A program made the translations under genes and the position numbers. The notes below the pieces were generated by a model. That model had not been told where the DNA came from. It did not search any database and saw nothing but the letters and a program-made list of their open reading frames with translations. From Mesodorylaimus sp. YZB2_4 (lineage: Eukaryota > Nematoda > Enoplea > Dorylaimida > Dorylaimidae): DNA of 64,000 bases. Shown here in pieces: positions 17,292-61,095 of this stretch. The DNA lies in the NCBI GenBank assembly GCA_030248295.1, contig JASANH010000363.1, positions 38,487-102,486 on the forward strand. Reading direction: 5' to 3'. Every line of letters starts with the position of its first letter. Positions within the stretch are counted from its first letter, which is position 1.

Positions 17292-17504
17292 ATGAGGACT
17301 TCAATCGCCTTAATTTTTTTGATCTGCGTCGGTAGTTTGTTCAATATCGCAGATGGAAAAAGTCTGGCCGCCGTTGAAGGTCAGAAAACCAGATTCAAGC
17401 GCTGGAATCTGCATGAAGCGCTGTCAGTCGATGACGCGAAGGAGTTAAGCTGGAAAGATTTGAAGGAAAAGAATATATTTCAAAGAGCCGGCAGATTTGG
17501 ATAA
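17292..17504 (+). CDS. Secreted prepropeptide, family copy A (R-F-Gly end)
   Basis: 70 residues, all in exon 2, which begins at 17285 after TTTAG with a 7-nt leader. Residues 1-22 are a signal peptide (hydrophobic I-A-L-I-F-L-I-C-V core, A-D-G before the likely cut). Residues 23-37 are a propeptide ending R-F-K-R, a furin-type site. The 33-residue mature part is charged and ends A-G-R-F-G before TAA. A C-terminal Gly is the usual amide donor, so processing would give an R-F-amide end. The promoter at 16342 and a non-coding exon 1 (to 16414) lie upstream across an 870-bp intron. I do not recognise the family. Neuropeptide-like, antimicrobial or venom-type roles are all possible. The gene structure and the intact frame shared with paralogues support a real gene. 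Confidence 0.8.
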   Translation: MRTSIALIFLICVGSLFNIADGKSLAAVEGQKTRFKRWNLHEALSVDDAKELSWKDLKEKNIFQRAGRFG

Positions 17505-18640
17505 ATTGGTTGAGACGCACGGTAACAACTACAATGTCAAAAATGTCTCGAATCGATGTTTTGCTTGTTTGATGATTAACTTGGAAGAAAGCATAAAAAC
17601 TGAAGCTTACATTTTTTAAATTGGTAAGGAAGGAATTGCAGATATCTTATCTCTAATCTTTTAATTTTCTTGACTGCTTAGGAGAAATGGCACAAGTAGA
17701 ACTAAATTTACGATTTGGGGTTTGAAACTGCTGTTGCGTTTGTTGGTTATCAAAATAAAAATGGGCTGGGCTTGTTTTCTGTTACTCTTATGATACTCCC
17801 GGAATTAAAGCATAATCAACACCCTTCGACTAACAGGCGGACTGGATCGGTCCGATACAAAACATCACCATCCAAAAATTTGGATTGGAATATTTGATCT
17901 AAACTATCCGATCCGATCCGATCTGGAATTCTAAGCCAATGATTAGATCAATATTCTGCATTGATGCTTCCTTTGTCCCCTCATAATTGAAGATACAAGT
18001 CATCTTGTCATTACTATGATTTGAGACCCAAATAAACACGGATGACTCAGATTGCACATAAAGTAGTTTGGAGTACGACGACAAAAATATTATGACCTGT
18101 TTTCTTTGAGAATATACACACCCTTCACGTTTCCGCATAGGCCGCGTGTACATTCCCAAAGAAAACAGATAATAGTGATGAGTAAAAACGAGGTGGAAAA
18201 TTCCTTTTGTATAAAAAATTTTAAAGTTGTAGTTTCAGTCATTTTTGAGCAACATATATCTTCTTTACTTTATCAGACTCTAAAGTAGGTACAGCACGAG
18301 GGACGTTCGTAAAGTTCAGAATGTCTTTATAAAAACAATGAGTCAGAAGTCAACCAGACAGACAAAGGGAGTGGTTTTGGGGAAATAAGCCCCAAAACCA
18401 CTCCCTTTGTAAGTAGAAACAATTTGAAAAAGAGCATGGCCCATCGTCGATTAGGTTGTCCCATATTTCCATTCCAAGGGTGCCTAAACAGGCCGAGCAG
18501 CTCCAAGAGAGCAGATCGACCGTCACTCCATTCAGAGGTTACAATTGATCCAGAGTTCCAATGAGGCAGAATATTGAGTTTTCTGACTAGTTCTGACTAG
18601 TTGATGTAAAAGTGTCCACGTACAGTATGTACATGCTGTA
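17505..18640. other. Intergenic stretch with repeats
   Basis: 17835..17935 contains tandem-like GATCCG/GGATCGGTCCGAT words typical of the oligomer-rich elements. 18105..18180 carries a GCCGCGTGTACATTCCCAAA block that recurs at 46028 and 50609. A perfect hairpin is annotated separately. No gene is supported. Confidence 0.4.
18366..18410. repeat. Perfect 20-bp hairpin
   Basis: AAAGGGAGTGGTTTTGGGG is followed by a short AAATAAG-type loop and then its exact inverse, CCCCAAAACCACTCCCTTT. No gene ends nearby, so it is unlikely to be a terminator. It may be a remnant of a palindromic element. Confidence 0.75.
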
Positions 18641-19058
18641 TTTTACGCTACTGCCGGTATTTCTACTTCGAAGAGGGAGTGCCAACTTCTATACGCAGGT
18701 TCCATGGAATTATATTTTGGATGATGATCGATAGTGCTTCCACAGAACGGCCTCTGCAGAGGCATACAGGATACAGGATACATGAACCCATTATTCGACT
18801 TGGTAAAAACAAGAACATATAATGTAGATAACGTTTTTCGCTGCGGACTCATACCCTCGTGGAGGCAAACAACAGAGCAGCCAGGTCTAGTTCTGATACG
18901 GGGTCTATTTCGGAGCAATTACTGATAGTTATCGGGACTCAATAACATCAAGTGCGGTATAGCGGTTCGCCATTCTATTTTCCATTTCTGATCATGGTTC
19001 AGATTTTGCCAAATGGTTATATTTAGCTCATACGGACCCCTGGTTTGAAAGGTTGTCG

Positions 19059-19156
19059 AGAGCCGACTCTGAATGATGGATGGAAAGAAAGTATAGCGAA
19101 GCTACGCATTAGTGACTGATAAATTACCCAGTCCCATCTTGGATGGGTATATAAGG
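19059..19156 (+). promoter_or_regulatory. Family-type promoter upstream of peptide gene B
   Basis: TATATAAGG at 19148..19156 follows the family block AGAGCCGACTCTGAATGATG (19059 on), a GCGAAGCTACGCAT block and TCTTGGATGGG. A non-coding exon 1 ends at 19211 (AAAG/GTAAGC). It may serve the intact exon at 21042 through a 1.8-kb intron, or the degenerate exon at 19318. Upstream, 18640..18690 and 18760..18850 share blocks with the region upstream of the 26.3-kb gene. Confidence 0.65.
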
Positions 19157-19317
19157 TTGGGCAGAGCATCAGACTGCCAGCCTCGAACCATCGAACATTA
19201 TTCCGAGAAAGGTAAGCCTATGAGAGAATGTTAGCTTGCTTGTGCTTGTTGTACTGTAATGCTATTTGCTGTTTACTATGCCAATGGCACCATTTCCTGC
19301 GTCTGCCTTTCATACAG

Positions 19318-19548
19318 GAATATCATTGGCTTTGGTTTGCTTTCTAATTCTCCAATTAGATGCTGGGTATGTTTGGGTCGTGTCAGAGGTGGTATTCTCA
19401 GTCTCCTTGAATCTTTTTAATCGCGGTTCAGCAAACGAAAGGAAGAAGTAAACAAGCCAAATGATCCGGGCAACTTTAATTATTGGGGTAGCCAAAATTC
19501 TGGACCTCCAGCACCAAAAATTTTTGATACTCTCCATGAACACGTGGA
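19318..19548 (+). pseudogene. Possible degenerate peptide-family exon
   Basis: An AG at 19316..19317 is followed by 7 nt and then ATT where the family has ATG. A hydrophobic stretch (L-A-L-V-C-F-L-I-L then D-A-G) comes next and, in another frame, a R-F-S-K-R-K-like dibasic site with a Pro/Gly/Asn-rich tail. It lies only 106 bp beyond the exon 1 donor at 19211, a typical spacing for this family. I infer a decayed member with a lost start and at least one frameshift; chance resemblance is quite possible. Confidence 0.3.
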
Positions 19549-19639
19549 TAATCTCGTTCTAATATCATATTCTTTTTTTAATATTCCGACATCGATTCTA
19601 TGGTGTACTTTCTCTTTAAAACGATTCTTTGCATCGTGC

Positions 19640-20500
19640 ACCTAAAATTGCCTCTTGGCACCATATCGGAGACATAATTTGAATTTGGCCAACCAGAGGC
19701 TAGGACGCTTAGGGCCTCCACAGTGTGGGTGGTGGGACGGAGGGACGGGGGGAGTAGGAGCCCCAGTTCCCTCGCAGGGTTTCCAACTTGTTTTGCCTAC
19801 ACTGTATACGAGCAGCAGTCATGACATGACAAGCTTGACTGTGCGAGGACAAGCGCACACAGCAGCGCCCCTCTGAAATGACCACTCCACTATGAGCATC
19901 TCTGCATGAGGTTGTGGCCACAGTGGTGCAGCTATTGGGCATTCGTCTTTCTGGTCAATGAAGACGGTGACCAGTCCAGGATGCACCCGTGCGGAGGTGC
20001 TCCTCCTAGTGGGGACACGTATATAGAGGGACGCTGCTGAGTGCGCTGGTCCCCGCCATCCTTGCTTACAAGTGTAACCTGCAGCCCTGGCGGCTAGGAG
20101 TAGTCGATACGCTCCCCTGGCTGGGACGTCAACCTCTCCGGTTTATGTTTCTGGGGCAGGTATATTCGCGAGACTTGCCTACTTACAGTAGGAGATTGTC
20201 GCTCAGAGATTTCGGTCTCGACTATCTCCCGCCGCCTGGATGCGCTGGTTACACAAGGTGTGACTGCTGGCAGGCTAGTGGTGAAACGGCCTTCTATCAA
20301 GAAGAAATTAAAAAACCTCCACTCGAGGGTATTCAGACACCAACTTCGTAAGACGATAGTGAGCGAGTTTGAACCCCTGCGGCGTTCGACTGCCGAGACT
20401 GTCTCCTCGTTTAGCTTCTGTCTCTACACTCGGAGCACGTCGCTGGTACTGGTTGAGTCACCCACGGCCTGGCATAAAACATGATCAGTGAGGGTTTATG
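19640..20500. other. GC-richer block of unknown origin
   Basis: This block is visibly richer in G and C than its surroundings. It sits inside what would be the intron of peptide gene B and has no intact open frame with a motif I know. It looks like an inserted element remnant, but I cannot name its class. Confidence 0.3.
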
Positions 20501-20561
20501 GTTCGCAAACCATACCTATGAATTTAAACCTGGATCAAGGTCTGACATTGGGCGCTCAATT

Positions 20562-20862
20562 CTTACCCGACACTGAAAACCCGACCTAAAAGTCGAGTTA
20601 GAGTCAGGTCGGGTTTTGATTCTGGAACCCGAAAGTGTTTGTAGCCCCCTCTTTGCGCGTAACTTGTATAAAAAGCCTTAATTAGAATCAAAATACAGAA
20701 GATATGTACCTATATCTTCAGCTTTAGAAATACATATCTGAGTAAAAATAACAGAAAAAAGTCGGGTCGGGTCAAGTCGGGTACACTTTCCAAACTTGAT
20801 GTGCGACCTGGCCCTGGGTAGCCCAAGCTATTCGCTCCCAAACATAACAGGGAGAACCGATG
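20562..20862. mobile_element. Non-autonomous element with GGGTCGGGTC-type ends
   Basis: The left side has ACCCGAC, CCCGACC and GTCGGGTTTT words. The right side has GTCGGGTCGGGTCAAGTCGG and closes with GCGACCTGGCCCTGG, a CAGGGCC-type tip on the other strand. Related words occur at 27540..27610 and 34820..34870, the outer edges of the inverted duplication. No coding capacity. Confidence 0.5.
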
Positions 20863-21048
20863 CGAGCACGTCGTCGAGGGAAGCTTGGTTGCACTGCTAC
20901 TTAAAAAAGTCAAAATTAAAAAATATTCGGCACAGGTCATTTAAAATTTTTCTGGCGAACGGCTTCCGCATATCGGCAGACCTTGATACCTAGAAATTTG
21001 TCATCGTCTGGTCGCCCTGTTAGTTACAGTGCCTTTTTCAGGTCAAAG

Positions 21049-21270
21049 ATGAGAGCCTCCACTGCATTAATTTTTATAATCTGCATCGGCACTTTGCTCA
21101 GTATCGCCGACGGAAGAAGCGTGGCCGTCACTAATGATGAAGAAACCAGATTGAAGCGCTCGAAGTCGCAGGAAGAAACTCTTTCATTGGAGGAGCAATT
21201 ACGCGATAGCGCTTTAGCGAAGGATGTGTATAATATGAGGCCTGGAGCTCACCCTCGACATAGAGGCTAA
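21049..21270 (+). CDS. Secreted prepropeptide, family copy B (H-R-Gly end)
   Basis: 73 residues. I choose the ATG at 21049, not the in-frame upstream codon at 20983, because a good acceptor (CTTTTTCAG at 21033..21041) leaves the same 7-nt leader seen in the paralogues and because a signal peptide starts here. Residues 1-22 are hydrophobic, ending I-A-D-G. Residues 34-37 are R-L-K-R. The mature part (36 residues) is acidic at first (E-E-T-L-S-L-E-E) and ends P-R-H-R-G, which suggests C-terminal amidation. No promoter is visible close upstream. The nearest family promoter is at 19148, and the long intron would contain at least one inserted element. The function is unknown. Confidence 0.72.
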   Translation: MRASTALIFIICIGTLLSIADGRSVAVTNDEETRLKRSKSQEETLSLEEQLRDSALAKDVYNMRPGAHPRHRG

Positions 21271-23802: not shown

Positions 23803-24004
23803 TAGTACAGTACAGTAGGACGGTGTACAGATTGTAGAAACACGTACCAGATATTTACAATATCTGTCTATCTGAAAGACAGTTGGCAAGCGGGATTACT
23901 TGCATTAATCACTTAAACATGGTGGAAAATTATGTTTTATTTGTCCACGTGCAATATCTTTGCCAGTTGGCAGAAACAGTCAACTCGTCATTTCACCCGT
24001 TCCT

Positions 24005-24995
24005 TCAAAACATCGGATAAAAAGTAGTATAATAAGCCTGACCAGTGTCCTTCTTCACGGCATATATATAGTTGCTGCCGACTGCAACATTCGAAGCTGG
24101 CCCGAGGAAAGCAACTTGGATCCATCTATCCATATTCCATGCGAAAATATCACCCGCCGCATTTAGCATGACCGCACGCGTCGGACTAGCCATATCGATT
24201 TGAGTGGCGTTCACCCCTGGCGCTTGAGCCCATTCTCGATACAAAGATCCCGTTACAGTTAGATACCATTCTATTTGATACAATTTTTTATCAATTCCGA
24301 TCATCCATCCGTATCCATCAAGGAAAGTGGCAGAAAGCGCGCTGATTTGATACGCAATACGCCAACCACCAGTCGATGGAACGTACTCGTAGACCTTGTT
24401 TGTTATACCGACACCTGTCACGTAATCTTTACTTTTGGCGCTGATGCTTACAATGATGTCGGAACTCGGATGGGATATTTTCCCCCAGCCCGAACTATTT
24501 GTACGACGCCAAATGAAGTACTCGATGCAACAGTCCTGGAAGATATAAAAAGTCTTCTCCGCTAAAGCACACTGGGTCGCAACTCAAGCCTCGTGGTCGT
24601 AGGATCCCGAAATATCGACACGCATTCTGTGGAGCGGCGGCCAGCTAATGCTGAACACTACGCTTACGCTCACGCTACGGCTTCTCCGCGACCCAAGCAC
24701 ATATTGAAACGAGGAAAACATAATGCAAGCTACTTACAAGGGCTTGAGGTGTGTGTTTTGAGAGTGCCCATACTGATCCATCCTGACTTGGGGACACTTG
24801 ATATCCCCATCCAGACCAGCTTTTAGTGAAGTTTGAGCCGTCCCATTGGGCAAAGAAACCAGATGCATCCGTGATCCATACAGCCTGGCCAACAGACGAA
24901 ATGGACTGAATGCCTCCCGGCCCAGGGAAGAGTCCCCATTGCTGGGCCACCGATGGGACGATGAACGCAATGAGCAATGGAAGAAAGGCTAGCAT
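24005..24995 (-). CDS. Secreted tectonin-like propeller protein 3, two exons
   Basis: Exon 1 is 24738..24995 and exon 2 is 24005..24535. The 202-bp intron has a GTAAGT donor (reading down from 24737) and a TTCCAG acceptor and is in phase 0. The spliced product is 262 residues. Residues 1-17 form a signal peptide (A-F-L-P-L-L-I-A, cut near S-V-A-Q). The mature chain then shows tectonin strands: F-P-G-P-G-G, A-V-W-I-T-D, F-A-Q-W-D-G and S-P-S-Q-D-G-S-V-W in exon 1, and several W-x-x-A, Y-x-Y-V and F-A-W-N-M-D-R-W strands in exon 2. The length equals the other tectonins of this window, but the sequence is far more diverged and the intron is private. A TATA-like CTATAAG lies near 25050. A lectin-type role is inferred. 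Confidence 0.8.
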
Positions 24996-25047
24996 GACTG
25001 CTCTTCAATCGGCCGATACTTGGATTTAGTGGGTACGACTTCTGTTA

Positions 25048-25056: not shown

Positions 25057-25274
25057 TCGGCTGGGCTACGAGCATTTACTGGCTTGAAATCAGCCTTGGT
25101 TTTTTCGATTCCACAAGGCTAACTAAAATATACTTCTAAAGATCCACGCGCGCTGCCGCCAACACTGTCGATTGTCCCACCTATCAGCTGTTACATAGCA
25201 CTCCCTTTTTATGACTAGGGTTAATGTTTTCGTACTCCAATTTCTTATAATAAAAATAATTTGCTTACACCCCT

Positions 25275-25795
25275 TCACATATGGACACTTCGTTTAGAAC
25301 GACTATCTCGGTGTTCTTTTCGAGCTATATCACGCGCAAAAAAGCGAATTCGATGAAGCTTTGTACAGCTGTCATGATCGAGAAGGTGTTTGCTTCCTGT
25401 CGAAATACAGCAACTATTCAACACTTCGGAGGCGCTAAATTGTTTAGGAAAACTCCCTGAGGCAAAAATGTTTTTGTATTGAGCTAATAAGCAAACAAGT
25501 TTGCAAAAATTTATATTTGTGTTTCCGCTTTTGGCTGATTTCATGCTGTACTTATTCAGCGAGCGCAGCTGTGGTGAAGTTGGTTTTCGTTGATGGCCCA
25601 CCTGTTTAGGGTGGGATTGCTGACAACTACACCACACCAATCACTGCTTACCCAAAGTACGGCGATGGTAAGGCGTAAATCGGCGATACGAGTTTAGAAA
25701 AGCAAGGCGAGCCATCAGTGACTTTTAATTTCACAATGTAGAACGTCCGACTCGCAAGAGAATACACGCCTTTATATACCCTCAGAAAATGCACC
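25275..25795 (-). pseudogene. Possible second TATA-driven gene of the left arm, interrupted
   Basis: A TATATA box (minus strand, near 25775) precedes a short exon with an ATG (near 25729), R-rich start M-A-R-L-A-F-L, and a GTAAGC donor. A following exon begins after AAACAG. In the spliced frame of the right-arm copy this exon reads on, but here a GAA codon is followed by TAA, so the frame stops. A different frame runs to 25275 and ends R-S-K-R-S-V-H-M. I do not recognise the protein; it may be a decayed gene or a non-coding transcript. Confidence 0.3.
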
Positions 25796-26287
25796 TAGCC
25801 TAGCCAGAAAACAGGTATGTCCAATAATTTCGACATATGCAAAACAGGCAAATGCACAAAACCTAGCCCGAGAACAGGTGCGTCAGATAATTTAGAGATA
25901 TGCAAACCAGGAAAAAGTACGGGACCTGGAGAAGGCAACCTGCTCTAACAGAATACAAGAGGATCCAAACTAGTCTTACGTGCCTGGGACTCTCCAAGAC
26001 ATATTGAAAGGTCAGTCCAGAACTAGAACTATATCACTGCTATCAGTCTTGACCAGTTAAAATCTTACGTGAGTCGATAATTATTTTTAGGATAAGAAAG
26101 ATTGCCGCATCTGAGTTTTTCGCGCGACAACAAACAAAAAACACAGAAATATCAAATTATGCTTTTTATAAGCACTCCCCAGCAATGAAAGAAAAAAGCA
26201 GCGATGCCGTTCAAACCCGTCGCACTCCTTATAACTCTACGTACGCGAAAAAAGCAAACCTAACTTCGAGCGAGTCTGATGGTAACA

Positions 26288-26488
26288 TCACTTCCCTCTC
26301 CATCTTCGCCTGGCAGTTCCTGTACTTGTCACATCTTCTCCTTCCCATTTCAGCAACGGCTCAGTTAAGATATCCCCTCTCTTTATTCTCGTATTTCGAT
26401 CGCTCAATGTGGCCGTACTCTTTGCACCAGCGATGCTGATCAAGGTGCCAACGCAAACCAATAAAGTCAGTACGAAGAGTGATTTCAT
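26288..26488 (-). CDS. Secreted prepropeptide, family copy D (R-W-R-Gly-Lys end)
   Basis: 66 residues. Exon 2 begins at 26495 after TTTTTCAG, with the family's 7-nt leader. Residues 1-22 form the signal peptide (L-F-V-L-T-L-L-V-C-V core, A-G-A before the cut). R-I-K-R is at 34-37. The 29-residue mature part begins G-D-I-L-T-E-P-L-L, like other members, and ends R-R-R-W-R-G-K. Removal of Lys and amidation on Gly would leave a cationic R-W-R amide, typical of membrane-active or receptor peptides. Exon 1 (ending 26820, GTATGC donor) and the TATA box at 26904 lie upstream across a 323-bp intron. An otherwise nearly identical copy in the right arm (35897..36096) has lost one T. Confidence 0.8.
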   Translation of the reverse strand: MKSLFVLTLLVCVGTLISIAGAKSTATLSDRNTRIKRGDILTEPLLKWEGEDVTSTGTARRRWRGK

Positions 26489-26903
26489 AGTTCGCCTGAA
26501 AAAAATGTTTTCTTACAAAGTCACTCACACCACTTTTTACAGCGCCTCTAAATTTTTTCGGTAATGCAGTATATTGTCAGTGGCAACAAGCGGGATAAGC
26601 TAAAATAAGTCTAATTTATTCTTTTAGCGTTTACAACCGCTTACATTTTGCTAGTCGTTAGCCCTAAGAGAGATATAAGGGCAGAGAAGTTGCCATTTTC
26701 TCGAGGCTCTCGTGGTTGATCGCGAGAGTGGTGGCTGTTCGGCAGAGCTCATACAGCCAAATGCAGTTCTCGAAAACAATGCACTTGGAACTCAATTGCT
26801 CCTGCAGAAAAGGGCATACCTTTCTTCGAAACAACAAGGATATCTTCTTGTCATGGAATATTATCAATTAAATGAGGATACTTGGACTATGCTCTGTCTC
26901 AAG

Positions 26904-27000
26904 CCTTATATACCCATCCACGACAGTGAAGGGTGATCAGTCAGAAAGAGAAGCTACTGATGCACAACTCTCCTCATTTATCAGTAGTGGTCCACTGTCG
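26904..27000 (-). promoter_or_regulatory. Promoter of peptide gene D
   Basis: TATATAAGG (minus strand, 26904..26912) is preceded by GTCGTGGATGGG and a GACTGATCACCC block, then GCATCAGTAGCTTCTC. On the other side, at 27327..27400, the block AGAGCCGACTCCGAATGATT and GCAGCTATGCATCAGTGACT faces the opposite way. The region therefore looks like a divergent double promoter whose second TATA box is lost. Confidence 0.7.
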
Positions 27001-27574
27001 GTATTTTTCCTTCGAAGAGGGAGTGTTAGCTGCAACGACCATCGCTCGGCTGTTATCATGCAATTACAGTATATTATGAAATGGCCACAAGTATAAAGAA
27101 TCCTAATACAGATAAGCAAAAGCGTTTCCACAGAGCAGCCTCTATAGAAGCACATACGACAGTGCAGGATACATGAACCCGAGTTCGACTCGGTAAACCG
27201 AGAGCATTGTAATGCACAGCAGATAACGGTTTTCGCAGCGAACTCATACTCATATGCGGGTGAACAATGGAGCAGCTAGATCTAGTCCTAAAACGAGCGC
27301 ATACGAAGCCCTGGTTGGAAGGGACATAAAGAGCCGACTCCGAATGATTGACGAAAGAAGAGAAGAGCGCAGCTATGCATCAGTGACTGGATAATTATGT
27401 TAATTATTATTAAGGAAATGTTTTTGCATCATAAACGGGTACAATACGTGTGCACCCTTTTGGAGATAAGTAGGGGCAGTTTACACCAATATTCTTGTGT
27501 ATGCTGTGAACGCGTCTGATACCCACGGGTTTTGGTCGGGTAAAGGTTCGGATGGGTCGGGCCTAATTTTCTGA

Positions 27575-30476: not shown

Positions 30477-30776
30477 ATGAGATCACTTATCGTACTGACT
30501 TTCGTCATCTTTGCTGGCACCATGTTTATCATCGCTGAAGGGAGGAGTGTCGCCGCTGTGGACGACCAAAATTCGAGAATGAAGCGTTGGAACTTGTTGG
30601 AAGAGCCGCTTTCAATCGCCCAGGCGAAAGAGTTCCGTGATAACAAGTTACATAGGGACGCTAATGGTAGACGCTCAGAGAAGGGAGGAGGGGGAACGCC
30701 AACAAGAGGAGGGGGAGGGAGAGGAAGAGGGGGAGGGCGAGGGGGAGGAGGGCGTGGGAGAGGAAAAGGGAAATAG
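30477..30776 (+). CDS. Secreted prepropeptide, family copy C with Gly/Arg-rich tail
   Basis: 99 residues, the longest member. The acceptor TTTTCAG (to 30469) and 7-nt leader place the start at 30477. Residues 1-22 are the signal peptide; R-M-K-R is at 34-37. The mature part opens W-N-L-L-E-E-P-L-S-I, clearly like copies A and D. After about residue 68 it becomes a tail of Gly and Arg runs ending G-K-G-K. The DNA there (about 30685..30772) is almost pure purine on this strand, so the tail probably arose by expansion of a GGA/GGG repeat. A cationic Gly/Arg tail is common in antimicrobial peptides, but that role is only an inference. The C-terminal G-K again fits processing to an amide. Confidence 0.8.
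   Translation: MRSLIVLTFVIFAGTMFIIAEGRSVAAVDDQNSRMKRWNLLEEPLSIAQAKEFRDNKLHRDANGRRSEKGGGGTPTRGGGGRGRGGGRGGGGRGRGKGK
30685..30772 (+). repeat. Polypurine GGA/GGG tract inside peptide gene C
   Basis: A nearly uninterrupted purine run of about 90 bases with many GGGGG blocks. It encodes the Gly/Arg tail of copy C and could form quadruplex or triplex DNA. Repeat-length variation would change the peptide directly. Confidence 0.8.
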
Positions 30777-34784: not shown

Positions 34785-35475
34785 CTGAGCGTTTGGGAAT
34801 CGAGCTAAATTAATAAGAAAATTAGGCCCGACCCATCCGAACCTTTACCCGACCAAAACCCGTGAGTATCAGACGCGTTCACAGCATACACAAGAATATT
34901 GGTGTAAACTGCCCCTACTTATCTCCAAAAGAGTGCACACGTATTGTACCCGTTTATGATGCAAAAAAATTTCCTTAATAATAATTAACATAATTATCCA
35001 GTCACTGATGCATAGCTGCGCTCTTCTCTTCTTTCGTCAATCATTCGGAGTCGGCTCTTTATGTCCCTTCCAACCAGGGCTTCGTATGCGCTCGTTTTAG
35101 GACTAGATCTAGCTGCTCCATTGTTCACCCGCATATGAGTATGAGTTCGCTGCGAAAACCGTTATCTGCTGTGCATTACAATGCTCTCGGTTTACCGAGT
35201 CGAACTCGGGTTCATGTATCCTGCACTGTCGTATGTGCTTCTATAGAGGCTGCTCTGTGGAAACGCTTTTGCTTATCTGTATTAGGATTCTTTATACTTG
35301 TGGCCATTTCATAATATACTGTAATTGCATGGTAACAGCCGAGCGATGGCCGTTGCAGCTAAAACTCCCTCTTCGAAGGAAAAATACCGACAGTGGACCA
35401 CTACTGATAAATGAGGATAGTTGTGCATCAGTAGCTTCTCTTTCTGACTGATCACCCTTCACTGTCGTGGATGGG

Positions 35476-35568
35476 TATATAAGGCTTGAGACAGAGCATA
35501 GTCCAAGTATCCTCATTTAATTGATAATATTCCATGACAAGAAGATATCCTTGTTGTTTCGAAGAAAG
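35476..35568 (+). promoter_or_regulatory. Promoter and exon 1 of peptide copy D'
   Basis: TATATAAGG at 35476..35484 after GTCGTGGATGGG, as in the left arm. Exon 1 ends at 35568 (GAAAG/GTATGC). These parts look fully functional although the coding exon is frameshifted. Confidence 0.7.
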
Positions 35569-35896
35569 GTATGCCCTTTTCTGCAGGAGCAATTGAGTTC
35601 CAAGTGCATTGTTTTCGAGAACTGCATTTGGCTGTATGAGCTCTGCCGAACAGCCACCACTCTCGCGATCAACCACGAGGGCCTCGAGAAAATGGCAACT
35701 TCTCTGCCCTTATATCTCTTTCAGGGCTAACGACTAGCAAAATGTAAGCGGTTGTAAACGCTAAAAGAATAAATTAGACTTATTTCAGCTTATCCTGCTT
35801 GTTGCCATTGACAATATACTGCATTACCAAAAAATTTGAAGTCGCTGTAAAAAGTGGAGTGAGTGACTTTCAAAGAAAAATTTTTTTAGGCGAACT

Positions 35897-36096
35897 ATGA
35901 AATCACTCTTCGTACTGACTTATTGGTTTGCGTTGGCACCTTGATCAGCATCGCTGGTGCAAAGAGTACGGCCACATTGAGCGATCGAAATACGAGAATA
36001 AAGAGAGGGGATATCTTAACTGAGCCGTTGCTGAAATGGGAAGGAGAAGATGTGACAAGTACAGGAACTGCCAGGCGAAGATGGAGAGGGAAGTGA
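35897..36096 (+). pseudogene. Frameshifted prepropeptide copy D'
   Basis: This matches the intact copy at 26288..26488 base for base almost throughout. The run GACTTTATTGG of the left arm is GACTTATTGG here: one T is missing at codon 9 of the signal peptide, and the shifted frame stops at a TGA a few codons on. The ATG, 7-nt leader, acceptor, R-I-K-R codons and stop are all still present. The loss must be recent; an assembly or sequencing error in the T-run is the alternative. Confidence 0.75.
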
Positions 36097-36616
36097 TGTT
36101 ACCATCAGACTCGCTCGAAGTTAGGTTTGCTTTTTTCACGTACGTAGACTTATAAGGAGTGCGACGGGTTTGAACGGCATCGCTGCTTTTTTCTTTCATT
36201 GCTGGGTAGTGCTGGGTAGTGGGTAGTAATAAAAAGCATAATTTGATATTTCTGTGTTTTTTGTTTGTTGTCGCGAGAAAAACTCAGATACGGCAATCTT
36301 TGTTATCTTAAAAATAATTATCGACTTACGTAAGATTTTCACTGGTCAAGACTGATAGCAGTGATATAGTTCTTGTTCCGGACTGACCTTTTAATATGTC
36401 TTGGAGAGTCCCAGCCACGTAAGACTATGTAGTTTGGATCCTTTTCTATTCTGATAGAAGGGGTCGCCTTCTCCTGTACTTTTTCCTGGTTTGCATATCT
36501 CTATATTATCCAACGCACCTGTTCTCGGGCTAGGTTTTGTGCATTTGCCTGTTTTGCATACGTCCAAATTATCGGACATACCTGTTTTCTGGCTAGGCTA
36601 GGTGCATTTTCTGAGA

Positions 36617-37119
36617 GTATATAAGGGTGTATTCTCTTGTGAGTCGGACGTTCTTCTTTGGGAAATTAAAAATCACTCATTGCTCATCTTCCTTCCCGAA
36701 ACTCGTATCGCCGATCCACGCCTTACCATTGCCGTACTTTGGGTAAGCAGTAATTGGTGTGGTGTAGTGGTCAGCAGTCTTACTCTAGACAGGTGGGCCA
36801 TCCACAAAAACCAACTTCATGGCAGCTGCGCTCGCTGAAAAAGTACAGCATGAAATCAGCCAAGAGCTGGAACACAAATTAAAATTTTTTGATACTGCTT
36901 CGCTTATTAGCCCAATACAAAAATATTTTTTCCTCAGGGAGTTTTTCTAAACATTTCAGCGGCTTCAAAGTGTTGCATAGTTGCTGTATTTCGACAGAAA
37001 GCAAACACCTCTTTGATCATGACAGCTGTACAAAGCTTCATCAAATTCGCTTTTTTGCGCGTCATATAGCTCGACAAGAACATCAATATGGTCGTTCTAA
37101 ACGAAGTGTCAATATGTAA
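36617..37119 (+). other. Second TATA-driven unit of the right arm
   Basis: TATATAAGG at 36618..36626, exon 1 to the GTAAGC donor near 36740, then a 3' exon from about 36791. In the phase set by exon 1, the exon reads G-G-P-S-T-K-T-N-F-M-A-A-A-L-A-E-K-V and on for about 45 codons before TAA. The exon 1 ATG of the left copy is ATT here. Each arm thus has a different lesion. Whether this was ever a protein gene is unclear. Confidence 0.3.
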
Positions 37120-37260
37120 AGGCGTGTAAGCATATTATTTTTATGAGTAGAAGCTGAAGTGCGAAAACATAAATCCCAGACATAAGAAGGGAGTGCTTTG
37201 TAACAGCTGATAGGTGGGACAATCGACAGTGTTGGCGGCAGCGCGCGTGGATCTTTAAAG

Positions 37261-41742: not shown

Positions 41743-43958
41743 ATGCTCAAACCAGAACTTCAAGATCCAAATCATCAGAAAAACTTATTTCTCGAAACTG
41801 ACTTGGCCCTACACGAACATTGTCAGAACTGTGTCATCCTCTCCATTCCAGCCCTCTGCGACCGATATGGATGCAAGGTGATCACGTGTCCTCACGAATG
41901 CGGTCGTCGATTCCACAGCTGCAAAACTGAAGAGCACTTGCTGTTGTGCCCGTTGGTCAAGTCGCCTTGTATAAACGCCTCGTACGGATGTCCATTGTGG
42001 ATGCTTCGTCGTGACTTGGGTAAACACTTGAGCACGTGTCCAGCCAGCATCGTCTATTGTAATATGGAAAGGAATCGAAAACCATTGAAAGAATTTGGCA
42101 AAAAATTGAAAAAGAAAGAAGGTCGTGTGGGCGAGGAAAAATTTATTGCTGATCCAAAATTAGAAAAAGATCTTGACGATAACGGAGAAAATATTGATCA
42201 GCCGGAACAAATCGCTTTGGATTTGGCCTTGGCTTACAGTGATCAAAGTCAAATCAATAATTTATATCATCTACCAAAATCACAACGAAAATTGGCTACA
42301 AATTTTTTTAATAAACGTCATCCAGCTTTACCACTGTTACCAAAAAATAAGTTATTGATTGATCAGGCCAATCAAGTTGATGAGTCGATCGATAATGCTC
42401 GATATCGCGACGATGAAGGCGATAGTTCGGAAGACGAGGCGGCCGCCAGACGACGCGCCTCGATTATGTCGCCAGTAGCTCGTGAATGTATTTTATGCAA
42501 AATCGATCCAAGTAGTCAACATTTGCATCAACTTCGAGGCACCACTTTGACCAATGTGGATCAAGATGGAATGACTTTCATGGACTTAGAAAACATAGAA
42601 TTAGATGAAAATGCAAACGAATCTTTGTTGGATGGGAAGTCGAAACCGTGGACCGTCTCTACCACAAAGGGAACATCATTTTACGCTGATCGTCAATTAT
42701 TAATTGATTTGAGTGCTGATTTTCTCCCTTCTCACTATCCCAAATGCGGGTCTTACTACACCATAGTTTGCGATCAATCGGTTAGAAGAGACGAATATGG
42801 TAAGTCGTGCATCTGCGCCAGAAGGCTAACTCATTTTAAACGAAGCGGAATTTAAAACTCCCGCGCTGACTGTTGGCTACTAATAACATTTTAAAATGAG
42901 ACGCTTTAAACTCGCTATGCGGGTATAAAAATCGTTTTCAGTGACGATTTGCCTTGCATGCATGAAATTCGAAGTAAATGATCAGACTAAAATCTTGTCT
43001 CATCGCAAGTAAGTGCATTACCCTTTACGCCTGACAGGGTGATTTTCTCGGCAGAGAAGGCGATTTGCAGCAGTAAAATGTCTCTGCGGAAAAATCGATA
43101 GAAATGCGTGGTCGGAAAGACAGGTTGGCAAGGGGCAGCTGAATTGAAAAATTTTTAGGAAACATCCATCAGTATTTTTGCTGCTGCGATTATGAACTCT
43201 GATTTTCAGGTCACCACTTCGCAAATGTTCACAATGACATAATCGATGGCCTTGACGGATGGGCATTGATCAGATGCCCCTTATGGCGTTATGGTTGTGG
43301 ATGTTTCGCCACTCGAATGGAACCTGCGGATGGCAATCGACGAATCGTCTACAATCGATATCGAGATGCATTTGCTATTCAATTTCTTGGTTACAATTAT
43401 CGATCTGATCAATCACCAAAAATCGATAATCAATCAATAAATACAGAGTCTATGGAAGATTCGTGCGCTTTCTTGGCTTTACCCTACGATATCATCTGCG
43501 ATATATGCACGATGCTGGATTCGAGCAGTCTCTTCTGTCTGGCTGCTACCTGCCGATCAATGAATGACTTTGTTCGATTCTCCTTGTTACCCACTCGAGG
43601 GCTGGTCGAGAGAGCTTGGCTGAAAATAGACGCAAAAACTGTTGGCGGACGGTCGCGATGGATTCAAGGAGTGAAAAAATGGAAACTAAGCAAAAGTTTT
43701 GAGCCAATTCATTCCTGGCGTATGAAGTCGAATGGTCGATTTGTGGATCATATCCAAAAATGTCCATATTACGAGCCATTAGTGCATAAGGAAGAACGAA
43801 TACCAGTGCTCACATTTGCTAAATCATTCGTACATCGCCCAAGTCGACGTGACATGTACCGAGCTGTGCCCATGGCCTTGGAGTACTTGCATAACAGAGA
43901 GGGTAGCGACAGCGAGCAAAGTGAGGAGGAGGGGGAGAATTTGGTGTTTGGACTTTAG
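41743..43958 (+). CDS. F-box only protein 30/40-like (TRAF-type zinc finger plus F-box)
   Basis: Exons 41743..42799 and 43210..43958 are joined by a GTAAGT/TTTTCAG intron of 410 bp. The split Gly codon confirms the phase, and the product is 601 residues. An in-frame stop (TAA, 24 nt upstream) supports this ATG, though a TTTTTTAAG just before could be an acceptor for a 5' UTR exon. Residues about 27-105 form the Cys/His-rich TRAF-like finger (H-C-x-x-C, F-H-S-C-K, H-L-L-L-C-P, C-P-A-S-I-V-Y-C). A long acidic linker follows. Across the junction H-H-F-A-N-V-H-N-D-I and C-P-L-W-R-Y-G-C-G-C match the pre-F-box region of FBXO30/FBXO40. An F-box (L-P-Y-D-I-I-C-D-I-C) lies around residues 430-475, and an acidic E-E-E-G-E tail ends the chain. 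These proteins are SCF ubiquitin-ligase receptors. Confidence 0.88.
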
Positions 43959-48397: not shown

Positions 48398-48610
48398 CTA
48401 ACCTCCGTAGGGGATCTGAGACCATATCCCGCTCCCACCATATGTCGGCCCCGAATATTTTGCTTTCTCCTTCACCAACGGCTTTTGCAACACATTGCCT
48501 CTCTTCAGTCTCATATGCTGCTCATTGTCGGCGTCCACACTTTTTCCATCAGCGATATTGAGCATAGTGCCGACAAAAATCAGGAGAGCCAATACGATCA
48601 GGGATCTCAT
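48398..48610 (-). CDS. Secreted prepropeptide, family copy E (P-Y-Gly-Gly end)
   Basis: 70 residues. The start is the ATG at 48608..48610, 7 nt after the acceptor (exon 2 begins 48617). The in-frame ATG two codons upstream lies in the intron. Residues 1-22 form the signal peptide (L-I-V-L-A-L-L-I-F-V core, A-D-G end). R-L-K-R is at 34-37. The mature part starts G-N-V-L-Q-K-P-L-V-K-E-K, as in copies F and G, and then departs completely: G-P-T-Y-G-G-S-G-I-W-S-Q-I-P-Y-G-G. The Gly end fits amidation. Exon 1 ends at 48907 (GTAGGC donor); the intron is 289 bp. The surrounding DNA is nearly the same as at copy G, so this C-terminal difference is concentrated in the coding part. Confidence 0.82.
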   Translation of the reverse strand: MRSLIVLALLIFVGTMLNIADGKSVDADNEQHMRLKRGNVLQKPLVKEKAKYSGPTYGGSGIWSQIPYGG

Positions 48611-50940: not shown

Positions 50941-50945
50941 TATTC

Positions 50946-52978: not shown

Positions 52979-53188
52979 CTAACCTACGTAGGGGGAAGTT
53001 TTTTCCCCGCTCACAGGAGTTGGATTATACGAATATTTTGCTTTCTCCTTCACCAACGGCTCTTGCAAAACATGGCCTCTCTTCAGTCTTATGTGCTGCT
53101 CATTGTCGGCGTCCACACTCTTTCCAGCAGCGATGTTGAGCATTGTGCCAACAAAAATCAGGAGAGCCAATACGATCAGGGATCTCAT
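52979..53188 (-). CDS. Secreted prepropeptide, family copy F (P-Y-V-Gly end)
   Basis: 69 residues. The start at 53186..53188 is 7 nt after the acceptor (exon 2 begins 53195). The signal peptide is almost the same as in copy E (A-A-G before the cut). R-L-K-R is at 34-37. The mature part begins G-H-V-L-Q-E-P-L-V-K-E-K, continues Y-S-Y-N-P-T-P-V-S, and ends S-P-Y-V-G, giving a predicted P-Y-V amide. Exon 1 ends at 53484 (GTAAGC donor) and the TATA box lies at 53575. The left flank (52805..52890) matches the right flank of unit G (62505..62590), so these units were probably once adjacent in a tandem array. The function is unknown. Confidence 0.82.
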   Translation of the reverse strand: MRSLIVLALLIFVGTMLNIAAGKSVDADNEQHIRLKRGHVLQEPLVKEKAKYSYNPTPVSGEKTSPYVG

Positions 53189-54134: not shown

Positions 54135-54425
54135 ATGGCGGCTGTATAGCACGCGGGGGTATATACGTACGTGTTGGAGGAAAGGCGGCGGGTGGCAGCG
54201 AGGTAATGCTATGATCAGTGATTTCTCGAAATTTTTAGTGACGACATAGGTATTTTATGGATGTAGTGTGTGGAGAATTTCGCGCCGGAAAAGATACAAG
54301 TATTTTTGGGTTTATTCTCGATGGTTTGAGGTAAAAAAGTCAGAGGAAGGGGATCGTGGCGAGACGCGATGTACGGGGCCGTGCGTGTTTGTTATAGGCA
54401 GCCGCGTTGCGGTGCGTTGTGCAAT
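54135..54425. repeat. Copy of the 57.7-kb dispersed repeat
   Basis: Matches 57665..57935: GGGTGGCAGCGAGGT, TATGATCAGTG, GAGGTAAAAAAGT and TTATAGGCAGCCGCGTTGCG. More diverged than the 51.3-kb copy. Non-coding. Confidence 0.65.
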
Positions 54426-55195: not shown

Positions 55196-55204
55196 TCCAA
55201 TTAT

Positions 55205-55852: not shown

Positions 55853-55984
55853 CTATAACAATATGATGATAATTCATAATAATATGGACACACGATATTT
55901 TTATGAAACAACACCTAACAAACGCTAAAAAACGTACCAAACATCAATATTTTACTAGCAAGAATAATACTTCGAAAAAGTATC

Positions 55985-56270
55985 GAGTTCCCTGCAGCAC
56001 CCAAAATCGAGCAAATGCCGCTGCTCGGTTGGAGAAGTTGAAAATTCTCAACTTCGACCGAGCCGAGCAAACCGAGCGAAACGCACTGGACGCAAGTCAA
56101 TGTGAATAGAGCATCGGCTGGCCGCTCCAGACGCACTGGACGCAAGACGCATCAGACGCGAGACGTAAGAGACGCAGGACGCAATGTCAATGTGAATACT
56201 ACCTCGGATGGTCGGCTCGGTTGCTCGGCTCGGTCGGATGGTGCGTCTCCAATGTGAATTCGCCTTTATT
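55985..56270. repeat. GACGCA-rich repeat end beside the Harbinger remnant
   Basis: Many GACGCA/GACGCG words, three TCAATGTGAAT copies and CGGCTCGGT words close with GTGAATTCGCC near 56256. This looks like the terminal and subterminal region of the element whose transposase lies to the left. The other end was not found. Confidence 0.5.
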
Positions 56271-57165
56271 CCCTAACTTCACACCTTCCGCTCATATCGC
56301 ATTGATTGTTTAGGCAACGATCACTTTTCCAGCCAAGACGAGCACACGATTTGCATAGAAAATGTGAGCTTTCTCGTTCCTTCCCCCGAAAAATTTTCAT
56401 TTCCTAAAACGAAAAAAACAACATCAACGTACAGCTAGAGTTTAAAAAAATTAATGGGGTTTTAAATATGATAGATACCAAAGACTTTGAAAACCTAATG
56501 ATAATTTTCTATGCCAGTTCCCTCTTGAGGCAAAATATTTTTGAGACTCCTCTTATGACACGAACAAAACGTCAAAATTTTAAATTTTTCTTTCGGATTA
56601 TCTGAAACACTGAATTGAGGAAACCAAAAATCTAGAAAAAGGATCTTACCTGAATCTATTCGCCATCTTAACGAGCGAAATAAATAAATAAAAAATGAGT
56701 CTGTTCCGATTAAAAAAACTTTTGGAAGGCTATTATCCACTCCACTCGCCATTCGCCTAAGCGACGGGGGGGGGGCGCGCACACTTGCCAGGTGTGACGG
56801 AGAGCTAGTCCAGAATAACTGTCGTAAGCAAATAAACGGCGCGAAATTCAACTGGATACTGTGGCTTGAACTGGCCTATTCGTTTCACGTCGGGCGAACG
56901 TTTTCGAAGGAGGCACGCGCTTCGATGTCGTCGTGACTGTTTGTGGCGAGATCCGTTTACATGGTTCCCATCACCCTCTAAAACCTCAGAAACCTCAGAA
57001 AACTCCTTAAATTTCAAGGTGCTCCTCAAAATCCTAAAAACCTACTCAAATTACAAAAAATTTCTTGAATCGCCTCAAAAATCAGAAAGTGTGATTGCTG
57101 GAAAGCTGACCGCATGAGGTGCCAATGGCCCAACACTTAAAAGCAAGGCACTTTTGCTGTTTGGT
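56271..57165. other. Intergenic stretch with one possible gene start
   Basis: On the minus strand an ATG (56664..56666) is followed by 14 nt and a GTAAGA donor at 56649, reading M-A-N-R-F-R. This could be a first coding exon, but no partner exon was found. A poly-G tract is at 56765..56774. Confidence 0.25.
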
Positions 57166-57169
57166 CCCC

Positions 57170-58195
57170 AACATACAGTAGGTTAGCTGGCCAGATTAGC
57201 TTAGGCTGGTGCTAGGCTTAGCCTTAAGCTTTAGCTGGCATATGACACCAGGCTGAGGCTTAGTCTGGTATAAGACTTAAGCTTGAGGTGATATTAGGCT
57301 TCAGCCGGCCTTCGCCTGGGAATTAAACGGCAAAAGCACTGAAAGCAGATAGTCTCATATAAATAAATAATAATAATAACAGATAGTGGGCATATAAACC
57401 CAGTCAGGAGTCCAATAGCTCCACGATATCCTTCTTATGGCAAAGCGCTGTCTTTGAAATCGAGAGCGATTAAATAGAACTTTGTAATTCCATTGTCAAG
57501 CAGCATTACTGACTATTGTAAGCGCGATAGCGCTTACCTTGGGGATAGAGTATAAAAGTATGGGCGGAGGGGGGGGGGGGGTGCGTATGGTTTGTGTGTG
57601 GGCCCTGTGGAAAACATTGAGCAGGTAAGGTGTACCGGGCTGGGTGCAAAGTTAGGCTAAAGCACGGGGGTATATATACCAACGTGTTGAAGGCGAGGCT
57701 GCGGGTGGCAGCGAGGTGATGTTATGATCAGTGTTTTCTCGAAATTTTCAGTGATGACATGGGTATTTTATGAATGAAGTGTGTGGAGAATTTTGCGCTG
57801 GACAAGATAAAAGTAATTTCGAGCTTTTTCTAGGTGGGATGAGGTAAAAAAGTGAGAGAAAGGGGGTTCGTGGCGAGACGCGATGTAGGTAGCCGTGCGT
57901 GTTTGTTATAGGCAGCCGCGTTGCGGTTCGTTATGCAATTCATCGTAAGCGCGGGTTAGCTTAGGGAATAGAGATTAGCGCCATAGGCGAGGGGAGGGGG
58001 CGTATGTTTTGCGTGTGTGGGCTGTGGGAAGTACAGTGGGGGATTTTTGGCACGGTCGGTGGGCATCTGGGATGGCACAACTCGGACATATTTTCGACCA
58101 GAAGCCGAGACTTGATGTCGTCGTGATTCTTAGCAGTGAAATTTATTTATTCACTTAACTAGTGTCGTTAATTCGGTCGACAAATCATCCACAGC
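57170..58195. mobile_element. Fullest copy of the dispersed repeat
   Basis: Starts with an AGGCTTA/TTAGGCTT-rich region (57180..57320), includes a poly-G run (57568..57581), and ends at CGGTCGACAAATCATCCA, the same end as the 51.3-kb copy. Partial copies are at 51311..51810 and 54135..54425. No protein is encoded; the class is unknown. Confidence 0.6.
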
Positions 58196-58236
58196 GCCAA
58201 TCATGCCATATACTTTTACTGGCAACCTGCCAGTAA

Positions 58237-58880
58237 GCGAGACCCCCACTAAAACACAACCCCTAGGTGCTTAGGAATAGAGAACACAAACCTGCCACCA
58301 AAAAACCGTGCGAAAAATTTCCCCTCTCCACGCGCTTCTCTATTCCCAAGCCCTGACAAATGATACCGTTGTGCGTTGCTGAAGCGCTGAAGCTTCATTG
58401 CATGCGGTCACTACACTCACGTTCTATGTATAACGTGAAATAAACATTGCACAGGAAGCTTGCTCTTTGACACAATGAGTAACCGACACAGCCATTATAT
58501 CCGCACACTTGGCATTCTATTAATTGACCTACAGCTTGCAATCGTAACATGCCTACAGTTATAGTGACATAACGCACTGTACATTTACAAAATGCATAGT
58601 TTACTTGAAAAACTAAACGAATCACTGCACCGAGCCCATAACAGCAAAATCTCATGCCTCCAACCATGCAAGCAATGCAGCAAATGCTTCTATGCATTAT
58701 GACTCGGCATGCAATGTATTCTCCACGCTATACCTAACGCAAGCGTATATCAGGGCTTAGGAATAGAGAAGCGCGTGGAGAGGGGAAATTTTTCGCACGG
58801 TTTTTTGGTGGCAGGTTTGTGTTCTCTATTCCTAAGCACCTAGGGGTTGGTCCATTTCATGGACCTTTTTTAGTGGGGTT
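58237..58880. mobile_element. Foldback element with inverted ends of about 120 bp
   Basis: 58245..58357 (CCACTAAAA, CCCCTAGGTGCTTAGGAATA, GAAAAATTTCCCCTCTCC, CTATTCC) is mirrored almost perfectly at 58745..58875. The right arm has an extra GGTCCATTTCATGGACC palindrome. The interior of about 390 bp is non-coding. Confidence 0.8.
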
Positions 58881-59340
58881 CTTGCAGTAGGTGTAGCGAT
58901 GTTTCCCTGCAGAAGAGAACACAGCTAAGTCTCGTCAGTCTTTTACAGCACACTGAAATATCATCCTACAGCTAATAGGCACAGAATAGCTCAAGAGAGT
59001 CGAATGTGGATAGGGAAAGAAATCTGTTTGGGTAAGAAGCAGAGAGCGCGCCAGAATGTACATGTGGGAAACTGGATTGTTTCAGGAAGAGCCGTGAGGA
59101 GGTTACTGTGTTGAACAGTGATGTGATGATTTGATGAGAAGAAGGAAAGGTCATTATCGCGAGAGTCGCGACACTCCCGCGAAAGGAAAAGAATGGAAAT
59201 GATGGGATGCAGTGAAGCGGTGGGAGGAAAGGATAAAAGGTGAGTGCGGATAAGTACATATGTATATGTTCACTGGATAAACATGTTCACTGATCCTCCT
59301 TCATGGCCTCCATCAGAGCCCGTATTGGCGAGCTCATCGG
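58881..59340. other. Intergenic stretch, nothing recognised
   Basis: Between the foldback element and the envelope-like remnant. No supportable feature. Confidence 0.35.
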
Positions 59341-59341
59341 T

Positions 59342-60708
59342 TCAGGCTGCTGGGCTTGGCTGGGTTAATTGACTGGGCCCTTCATTGGGCAGGGCTCTTC
59401 TTGACTCATAGGGGGTGGATGATGCAGTATAGGTTCCGTGTCGTGACCTTTGAGGATTTTCAGCAGAAGCCATTTGATAACGTTCGAGAAGAGTTTGGCT
59501 TTGATATACGCACAACATAGTTGCACCCAGATCCAATGGGGTTTGCCTGTAAACTGATCGAGTAGTCCCATTGGCGTATATCTGCTGGCTGCGTCCAAAA
59601 TAGCATTCGCTTTTGGACCAGCTGGTTGTCCAACGACTTAGCTCAACTCCCGTAGTGTAATGGCGTGTTCTTCAACTAAGGCGAAAAAGTCATTCAGGCT
59701 GATCTGCCCTAGCAGTTCGTCCCTTGTACATCAGAAGCGGCTTGTGGATAACAGGTTTTAAGTCGCCATAGGCTGATAGCGTTGTCGTGAACATAGCGTG
59801 GTCAGCTAATGGTCCGTCGTATGGGCGCAGTTCTCCTGAGTGAGCAGAATAAAGAAGAATCTTTCCACTTGCATCTTGAAGAAATGTTTCCTGCACTAAA
59901 TCGCATTCTGTGGGCGCAGAGTGGGCGTAAATGATTCTAGTTTTCGGTTCCATTAATCCCGTTGTGGCCTGCCTGCCGTTGTGGTGGCCACCGTGTAATT
60001 TAATGGGACCCATTCTGTACATTTCTTGCCCATGCTGAGAAATGTGTAGCTTTCGACTTGGTTGCATGGCCAGATTTCTAAGATTGTCCCATAAAAACGA
60101 CCCATGACGTTGCTGTCGTTGGAAAGGTGGGTCCTGGCGATGAGGGTGGGCTCAGAGTGAGCCAGTAGCATGCTGATCTGTTGAAGTTCATGGATGGATC
60201 GACAAACCGAATAGAAGGCGTGATTCAAGAGCACTTTGAATAAGTACTCTAACCGAGATTCCAGTGCTTGCAGTCGTGGGGTCACAATGTAACTCTCTCC
60301 ATTGTCTTCTGCTTGACGTTTAGATCTCCGTAGATCACTCGGCGCGATGACTGAGCCCATTGTGATGACAATAGAGACTCCTTGATCCGTCATTGTAGCT
60401 TCTGAGCTGTCGCAAACCGTGACCTTCCCTCGACCATTATTCCAGAATGCCAGTTAATAGTCGTCACTTAGGAATTGATTGTCCAAAAGTTTTCCATCGA
60501 TTGACTTCCAGAACACGTATTTACACTTGGCCGTTTTGTTTATCTTCCATACTGGGGCGCTTTGATCATGTAATGTGCAGGCCTCCTTCTCGTAGTCGCA
60601 GTGCGCGACGTTGGCCAAGTTCGATTCCTTGTGGCCATGGTATAATTGGTAGACTTTGCTTTTGATCAGAAAACAATTAGTAGTCTCTCTGGCATCATCT
60701 GGCAACAT
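59342..60708 (-). pseudogene. Degraded envelope-glycoprotein-like remnant
   Basis: Minus-strand frames at 60454..60708, 59953..60393, 59690..60067 and 59365..59598 look like consecutive pieces of one membrane glycoprotein: a Cys-rich outer part, a dibasic R-S-K-R site, a long helical middle part, a W-P-C then K-C-T-E-W region, and a hydrophobic Trp-rich segment near the end. This resembles envelope proteins that some LTR retroelements of invertebrates acquired from RNA viruses (class not settled). The first two frames are separated by one stop codon; the later pieces are in other frames, so at least two frameshifts exist. No pol, gag or LTR is visible, and unit G abuts it at 60703. The copy is non-functional. 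Confidence 0.45.
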
Positions 60709-60885
60709 CTCATCGATAAGTGATCAGCTTTTCATTATCAAGTGCATGAAAAAGCTCGCTTTGAAATAAAATCATGACTTTTTATAGATAAAAACAAAGA
60801 TAAAGCAGCTGAACGGCTCTGTAGATTGACCCGCACCTTTTTGCCCACAAACACAAACACTTTGACTCGATAACCAAAATTATCA

Positions 60886-61095
60886 CTAACCTATGTAGGG
60901 GAAAATGTTTCCCTCACTCACAGGAGTTGGATTAAACGAATATTTTTCTTTCTCCTTCACCAACACTTTTTGCAACACATTGCCTCTCTTCAGTCTCATA
61001 TGCTGCTCATTGTCGGCGTCCACGGTCTTTCCATAAGCGATATTGAGCATAGTGCCAACAAAAATCAGGAGAGCCAATACGATCAGAAATCTCAT
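60886..61095 (-). CDS. Secreted prepropeptide, family copy G (P-Y-I-Gly end)
   Basis: 69 residues. I start at 61093..61095, 7 nt after the acceptor (exon 2 begins 61102); a longer in-frame reading upstream lies in the intron. Residues 1-22 form the signal peptide (F-L-I-V-L-A-L-L-I-F-V core, A-Y-G end). R-L-K-R is at 34-37. The mature part begins G-N-V-L-Q-K-V-L-V-K-E-K, continues Y-S-F-N-P-T-P-V-S-E and ends F-P-Y-I-G, giving a predicted P-Y-I amide. Exon 1 ends at 61396 (GTAAGC donor) and the TATA box is at 61489. Its flanks nearly equal those of copy E, yet its C-terminal peptide is closer to copy F. Confidence 0.82.
   Translation of the reverse strand: MRFLIVLALLIFVGTMLNIAYGKTVDADNEQHMRLKRGNVLQKVLVKEKEKYSFNPTPVSEGNIFPYIG

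Follow-up and report, generated by a model that had tools for sequence, protein, structure and literature searches.

A candidate family of secreted, processed peptides with diversified tails in the dorylaimid nematode Mesodorylaimus

The window considered here is a 64,000-nucleotide stretch of the genome of Mesodorylaimus sp. YZB2_4 (assembly GCA_030248295.1, contig JASANH010000363.1, positions 38,487 to 102,486 of the forward strand). It carries a cluster of small peptide genes, eight copies (one broken) in 44 kb, which belong to a gene family with a constrained leader and a variable C-terminal tail, and in several pairs of copies the tail has diverged more than the DNA just past the stop codon. 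We infer the secretion, cleavage and amidation of the products, as well as their role, from motifs and from likeness to known systems. The reading favored here, with about even confidence, is that the family is restricted to one lineage and encodes cysteine-poor peptides that are secreted, processed and diversified in their tails, with defense or interaction as their most likely role.

The gene family and its leader

The original prediction described seven intact open reading frames (ORFs) that share a rigid plan, and this plan was found in all seven: a 22-residue leader, R-x-K-R from residue 34, and 29-62 residues after it (Table 1). In W30 the part downstream of the cleavage motif carries a net charge of +9. 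The ORF list entry for W61 extends in frame to 61200; the family ATG lies at 61095. The broken copy, W36, has a 1-base deletion in the signal-peptide part, and its remaining frame is identical to that of W26. Both W26 and W36 are carried by an inverted duplication of 2.45 kb (window 25137-27572 and 34816-37257, 93.6% identical).

Table 1. Peptide genes of the cluster and two of their variable tails, in window positions
Feature	Positions	Strand	Length	Residues 34-37	Other features
W17, intact	17292..17504	+	70 residues	R-F-K-R	leader 1-22; 33-residue C-terminal part, end R-F-G
W21, intact	21049..21270	+	73 residues	R-L-K-R	end H-R-G
W26, intact	26288..26488	-	66 residues	R-I-K-R	end R-G-K
W30, intact	30477..30776	+	99 residues	R-M-K-R	long Gly/Arg-rich tail, end K-G-K
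W36, broken	35897..36096 (about)	+			inverted-duplicate copy of W26; start inferred from alignment
W48, intact	48398..48610	-	70 residues	R-L-K-R	end Y-G-G
W53, intact	52979..53188	-	69 residues	R-L-K-R	end Y-V-G
W61, intact	60886..61095	-	69 residues	R-L-K-R	end Y-I-G
W48, variable tail	48398..48454	-			codon 53 to stop
W61, variable tail	60886..60939	-			codon 53 to stop

Searches of the assembly (145 Mb, 1067 contigs) with five seeds, W48, W17, C492_27, W26 and C51, yielded 16, 15, 15, 16 and 14 rows, respectively (copies outside the window are named by their contig). The W48 and W26 seeds returned the same 16 rows, which comprise 14 distinct loci, W36, and a copy at C492:46548 that was merged with W61 as one locus, being in a contig-end overlap. 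This overlap joins C303:98210-102486 and C492:43643-47919, both at contig ends, at 99.7% identity over 4.28 kb, and C492 probably continues the cluster of the window beyond the end of its contig. The other seeds missed a few loci: W17 did not find C51, C492_27 did not find C530_42 or W36, and C51 found neither W17 nor W21. One weak extra row (C303:70213, E 0.32), given by the C492_27 seed only, was dropped. Of the 14 loci, the window contains seven, C530 three, C492 two, and C51 and C174 one each. Compared with its nearest relatives, C530_42 has a frameshift and stops early, so 13 loci are intact.

The leader is strongly conserved throughout this set. Residues 4-19 are strongly hydrophobic in every copy (mean Kyte-Doolittle value 2.2-2.8), and A-x-G stands at the expected signal-peptidase cut (residues 20-22) in 13 of the 14 loci, W26 having A-G-A instead. 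All 14 have R-x-K-R after the signal peptide, a form of the proprotein-convertase substrate motif R-x-K/R-R at which cleavage is predicted; it begins at residue 34 in 12 loci and at residues 33 and 36 in the remaining two. An alignment of 13 rows (12 distinct loci and the overlap copy, with C51 and C174 left out and the W61 row lacking its first Met) has four invariant positions, A20, R34, K36 and R37. No cysteine occurs after residue 22 in 13 of the 14 loci. When differences were summed over the 10 pairs of five related copies, the ratio of non-synonymous to synonymous divergence (pN/pS) was 0.14 for residues 1-22, 0.20 for residues 23-37 and 0.62 for residues 38-52. The proposed conserved leader with a variable product is thus supported, the leader being hydrophobic and its frame under selection. 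Furthermore, the ORF plan is more than chance because it recurs in 14 distinct related loci and because the common part is under purifying selection in the five related copies for which pN/pS was obtained.

An AG precedes the ATG by 9 nucleotides (nt) in 11 of the 14 loci and by 10 and 12 nt in two others, and is absent in C174. Together with the T- and C-rich stretches upstream of it, this AG would fit a splice acceptor, used either in trans-splicing or for an intron in the 5' untranslated region (UTR). A search of the assembly for the exact 22-base SL1 leader gave nothing, and an Rfam search of the genome for SL1 gave no match, though no control matched either. Given the constraint on the leader and the acceptor-like AG, the seven ORFs and their relatives look like real genes; removal of the signal peptide and cleavage at R-x-K-R are predicted from motifs. 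An element upstream of several copies resembled a first exon. However, its orientation relative to the genes is opposite among copies, and it was consequently taken as a dispersed repeat.

Divergence of the tail

Beyond the original prediction, the tail was found to be a sharply bounded block of divergence. In the clearest pair, W48 and W61, 24 of 54 sites differ in the tail, compared with 11/156 in codons 1-52, 20/147 in the 150 nt that follow and 27/336 between positions -400 and -60. The alignment of these two genes contains a block of about 35-38 nt of little similarity, set between borders that are nearly identical and that take in the final codons before the stop. When the tail was compared with the 150 nt past the stop by a one-sided Fisher test in 15 pairs drawn from six related copies, divergence of the tail exceeded that of the downstream DNA at p < 0.02 in seven pairs: W48-W61 (8e-6), W61-C492_9.6 (3.6e-5), W61-C530_42 (5.1e-4), W48-C492_9.6 (1.1e-3), W53-C492_9.6 (6.3e-3), W48-C530_42 (0.013) and W53-C530_42 (0.019).

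Several observations weigh against a general excess of change in the tail. The 15 pairs share members and are hence not independent. Eight of them have no significant excess, and five of these eight involve C530_39, for which tail and downstream flank both lie near the level of unrelated sequence (identity near 50% is that expected of random alignment) and for which one pair has four aligned tail sites. The other three are W48-W53 (p = 0.30), C492_9.6-C530_42 (p = 0.11) and W53-W61, where the tail differs at 8/54 sites and the downstream flank at 46/150; the tail changes in this last pair are seven non-synonymous and one synonymous, too few for a selection test of their own. In addition, the 60 nt upstream of the ATG are fairly diverged too in W48-W61 (11/60), and residues 38-52, which precede the tail, are loosely constrained.

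A three-way comparison of W48, W53 and W61 gave conflicting groupings. Sites in the tail group W53 with W61 by 17 to 1, and those in the 3' flank group W48 with W61 by 54 to 14 (p = 1e-8); the corresponding counts are 27 to 32 in the 5' flank and 2 to 8 in codons 1-52. As replacement in single lineages (of the W48 tail and of the W53 3' flank) would explain such a conflict with no exchange among the copies, a change of blocks is claimed here, and conversion is not proven. No donor cassettes for the tails were found in the 215 kb of contig searched, beyond those of close pairs; the search also returned one 21-base match in sequence that forms the 3' flank in relatives and two 14-base matches. 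It has nevertheless been considered that the tail might be altered by a process directed at the locus, going beyond selection on point mutations. In favor of this idea are the conflicting groupings of tail and flank and the W48/W61 case itself, in which about 35-38 nt have been exchanged with the frame kept and the borders almost unchanged. We regard such a process as improbable, and offer it as speculation. If it were true, it would amount to a cassette-like diversification of the peptide products of a gene cluster, comparable in effect to the 'HVD editing' of the hypervariable domain (HVD) in the HYP effectors, in an unrelated gene family.

Could the tail be an intron?

A quite unlikely alternative is that the tail is an intron or untranslated read-through behind a coding exon formed by the conserved part, so that the real C-terminus would lie in a later exon. 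In W48, W53 and W61, the final Gly codon and the stop also read as G|GTTAGT, which resembles a splice donor; some other copies have a donor-like GT; and in distant copies similarity drops soon after residue 50. Splicing at or before the stop is consequently possible in some copies, a point against the favored reading, and an extra exon may exist in the W48/W53/W61 clade. However, when the stretch between codon 34 and a point shortly after the stop was examined with a simple score (at least four of seven consensus positions), no donor-like site was present in 7 of the 14 distinct copies, so an intron in the tail is no general explanation. Furthermore, in 7 of the 15 pairs the tail has diverged beyond the downstream DNA, unlike an ordinary intron, and W21 and C492_27 are still alike past residue 52.

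The terminal glycine

It had been stated that every product ends in Gly or Gly-Lys and is probably amidated. Within the window the first statement holds for all seven intact copies, and over the 13 intact copies of the genome such an end is significantly frequent: eight copies, compared with 2.0 expected when residues 38 to the end are shuffled (p = 1.5e-4), a count to which the window, where the rule was first noticed, contributes. If one of W48, W53 and W61 is kept, the count becomes 6/11 (p = 0.0025, or p = 0.010 when only residues 53 to the end are shuffled). Beyond the window, though, the rule breaks down. Just one of the six independent intact copies has a Gly end (0.85 expected, p = 0.60), which is no better than chance and speaks against amidation as a property of the family; the ends of the remaining five are V-R-V-N, H-G-M, T-P-Y, W-R-D and G-D-S. 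The frame of C492_9.6 runs past the stop position of its relatives. Amidation is possible because the genome encodes PHM-type copper monooxygenase domains, and taken together these counts make it plausible for part of the family.

The processing motif also raises the question of whether these are ordinary amidated neuropeptides, such as those of the FLP type. R-x-K-R, the Gly or Gly-Lys end in 8/13 intact copies and the R-F-G end of one copy would all suit such precursors. However, the amidation signal is missing in 5/13 intact copies, and keeping the leader while the product varies is the reverse of what is seen in neuropeptide precursors, where it is usually the peptide that is kept and the remainder that varies. 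FLP precursors contain RFamide products, usually several, between basic sites; here, an R-F-G end occurs in 1/13 intact copies, and no repeated product was seen in the sequences. A neuropeptide role is therefore highly improbable.

Relatives and possible roles

The prediction that these genes belong to no named family held at the sensitivity used, as profile and protein searches placed none of them. Against Pfam, the seven window members gave only matches below the curated cut-offs, and no relative was found in PDB. Among 5.8 billion proteins, a collection whose coverage of this nematode's relatives is uncertain, word-based searching, which misses distant short proteins, found none with the family alignment (7989 candidates scored) or with the central member C530_39 (1 candidate). 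As a control, the first exon of a neighboring TRAF-finger/F-box gene matched a fish protein (34%) and, more closely, two unnamed proteins (47-48%), so the protein database holds some animal sequence. Viral and prokaryote contigs contained no relative, as expected of an animal gene, and no description of such a family was found in the literature by titles and the starts of abstracts.

The role is thus approached through known systems, and that it rests on analogy counts against the favored reading. Conotoxin-type and frog-skin-type precursors combine a conserved signal and pro region with a diversified mature region; the present family differs in having no cysteine framework. NLP products are Gly/Tyr-rich repeats, and no counterpart was seen here on inspection of the tails, W30 alone being Gly/Arg-rich and no repeat being common to the copies. 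In Caenorhabditis, the genes for small peptides of the nlp-29 group are arranged as a single tandem cluster, and adaptive change is reported to be concentrated in adjacent copies (PMC2453101). The present genes resemble the nlp-29 and cnc genes in forming a tandem cluster (8 copies in 44 kb) with fast change of the product (7 of 15 pairs). They differ in that the variable part follows a fixed R-x-K-R and that the tails have no composition in common. The leader under purifying selection, the fixed dibasic site and a product that in several pairs outruns its non-coding neighbors would mark outward-facing peptides. For these an antimicrobial or other defensive role is most likely, followed by parasitism effectors and then by kin recognition; defense is ranked first on account of the clustering of the genes, the nlp-29 precedent and products that are linear and poor in cysteine.

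Effectors of parasitism would be peptides directed at a host and diversified through host recognition. GH12 is reportedly found in some plant-parasitic dorylaimids, and a GH12 search of this genome gave no match, which is weak evidence against such a role. The HYP effectors of potato cyst nematodes are secreted, have conserved parts and a hypervariable coding block, and are described as having no Pfam domain and no known homologs (PMC11228951). This layout resembles that of the present family, for which no Pfam domain and no homolog was found either. According to the same source, the variation of HYP is allelic at single loci and consists of short motifs between conserved parts of 410 bp (5') and 94 bp (3'). 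In the present family, by comparison, the variation seen lies between paralogs, in a block near the C-terminus that has no motif repeats and for the clearest pair spans about 35-40 nt. The motif-shuffled domain of HYP has no equivalent, as motifs are common only to the tails of close pairs and the tails extend to the C-terminus. An effector role is judged unlikely.

It could also be supposed that these are peptides of kin or species recognition working like SELF-1 of Pristionchus, with the tail as an identity tag. No link to predation or recognition has emerged here. The genome contains a complete 18S copy (L033:936-2741) and two variants (L034:50-2107 and L035:936-2143), of which the one carries a long insertion and the other lacks most of the 3' part; these may be divergent ribosomal DNA copies or pseudogenes. 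The 5' end of the 18S is of what we take to be the ancestral type rather than the Rhabditina type, unlike the group of Pristionchus, and this was counted against the comparison. SELF-1 is described as a small peptide of variable copy number whose C-terminus is hypervariable, with a paralog that is alike outside that domain (PMC10721034). The present genes would likewise encode small peptides that are hypervariable at the C-terminus. Taken together, a recognition role is decidedly unlikely.

Neighboring genes and genome background

A cluster of secreted tectonin-like genes (window 2765-3661 on the minus strand, 5822-6619 on the plus strand and 24005-24995 on the minus strand) adjoins the peptide cluster. 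The second and third of these have weak PF19193 matches, below the cut-off. A tblastn search with the 5822-6619 gene found the 2765-3661 gene at 54% and a piece at window 1374-1649 at 34%; two further copies (37%) lie on this contig shortly before the window begins. An FBXO30/40-like gene with a TRAF-type zinc finger and an F-box lies at 41743-43958 on the plus strand and has at least two exons (PF15965, PF15966). On the minus strand, broken frames at 59690-60708 resemble, by eye, a retroelement glycoprotein of the virus type, one piece having a non-significant match to PF06208 (E 0.08), and an ORF at 13163-13666 resembles, also by eye, a fragment of a reverse transcriptase of a non-long-terminal-repeat element. 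The N-terminal domain of cuticle collagen, which is restricted to nematodes, has 133 matches in the genome, which mark it as that of a nematode; none of the 14 control genomes had a match, but these are apparently microbial and lend the count no weight.

A model for the peptides and its significance

Taken together, these results lead to a model in which the message of most copies would begin at the splice acceptor about 9 nt upstream of the ATG, through trans-splicing or removal of an intron in the 5' UTR. The 22-residue signal peptide would direct the precursor into the secretory path and be removed after Ala-x-Gly at residues 20-22, and a furin/Kex2-type convertase would then cut after the R-x-K-R that ends at residue 37. 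The predicted product is a linear and almost always cysteine-free peptide, semi-conserved over residues 38-52 and followed by the diversified tail, and products with a Gly or Gly-Lys end may become amides through PHM/PAL. In this model the tail would be the target of diversification, having been replaced or rewritten faster than the adjacent non-coding DNA in several pairs while the leader was kept.

The result is a cysteine-poor family with a fixed R-x-K-R and a tail that outruns the adjacent non-coding DNA in several pairs, in an assembly without an exact SL1. Its compact cluster offers a place to ask whether selection by itself produces such diversity or whether a mutational process aimed at the tail is responsible. 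Families that combine a fixed leader with a fast-changing product stand at the interface of animals with microbes, hosts and rivals.

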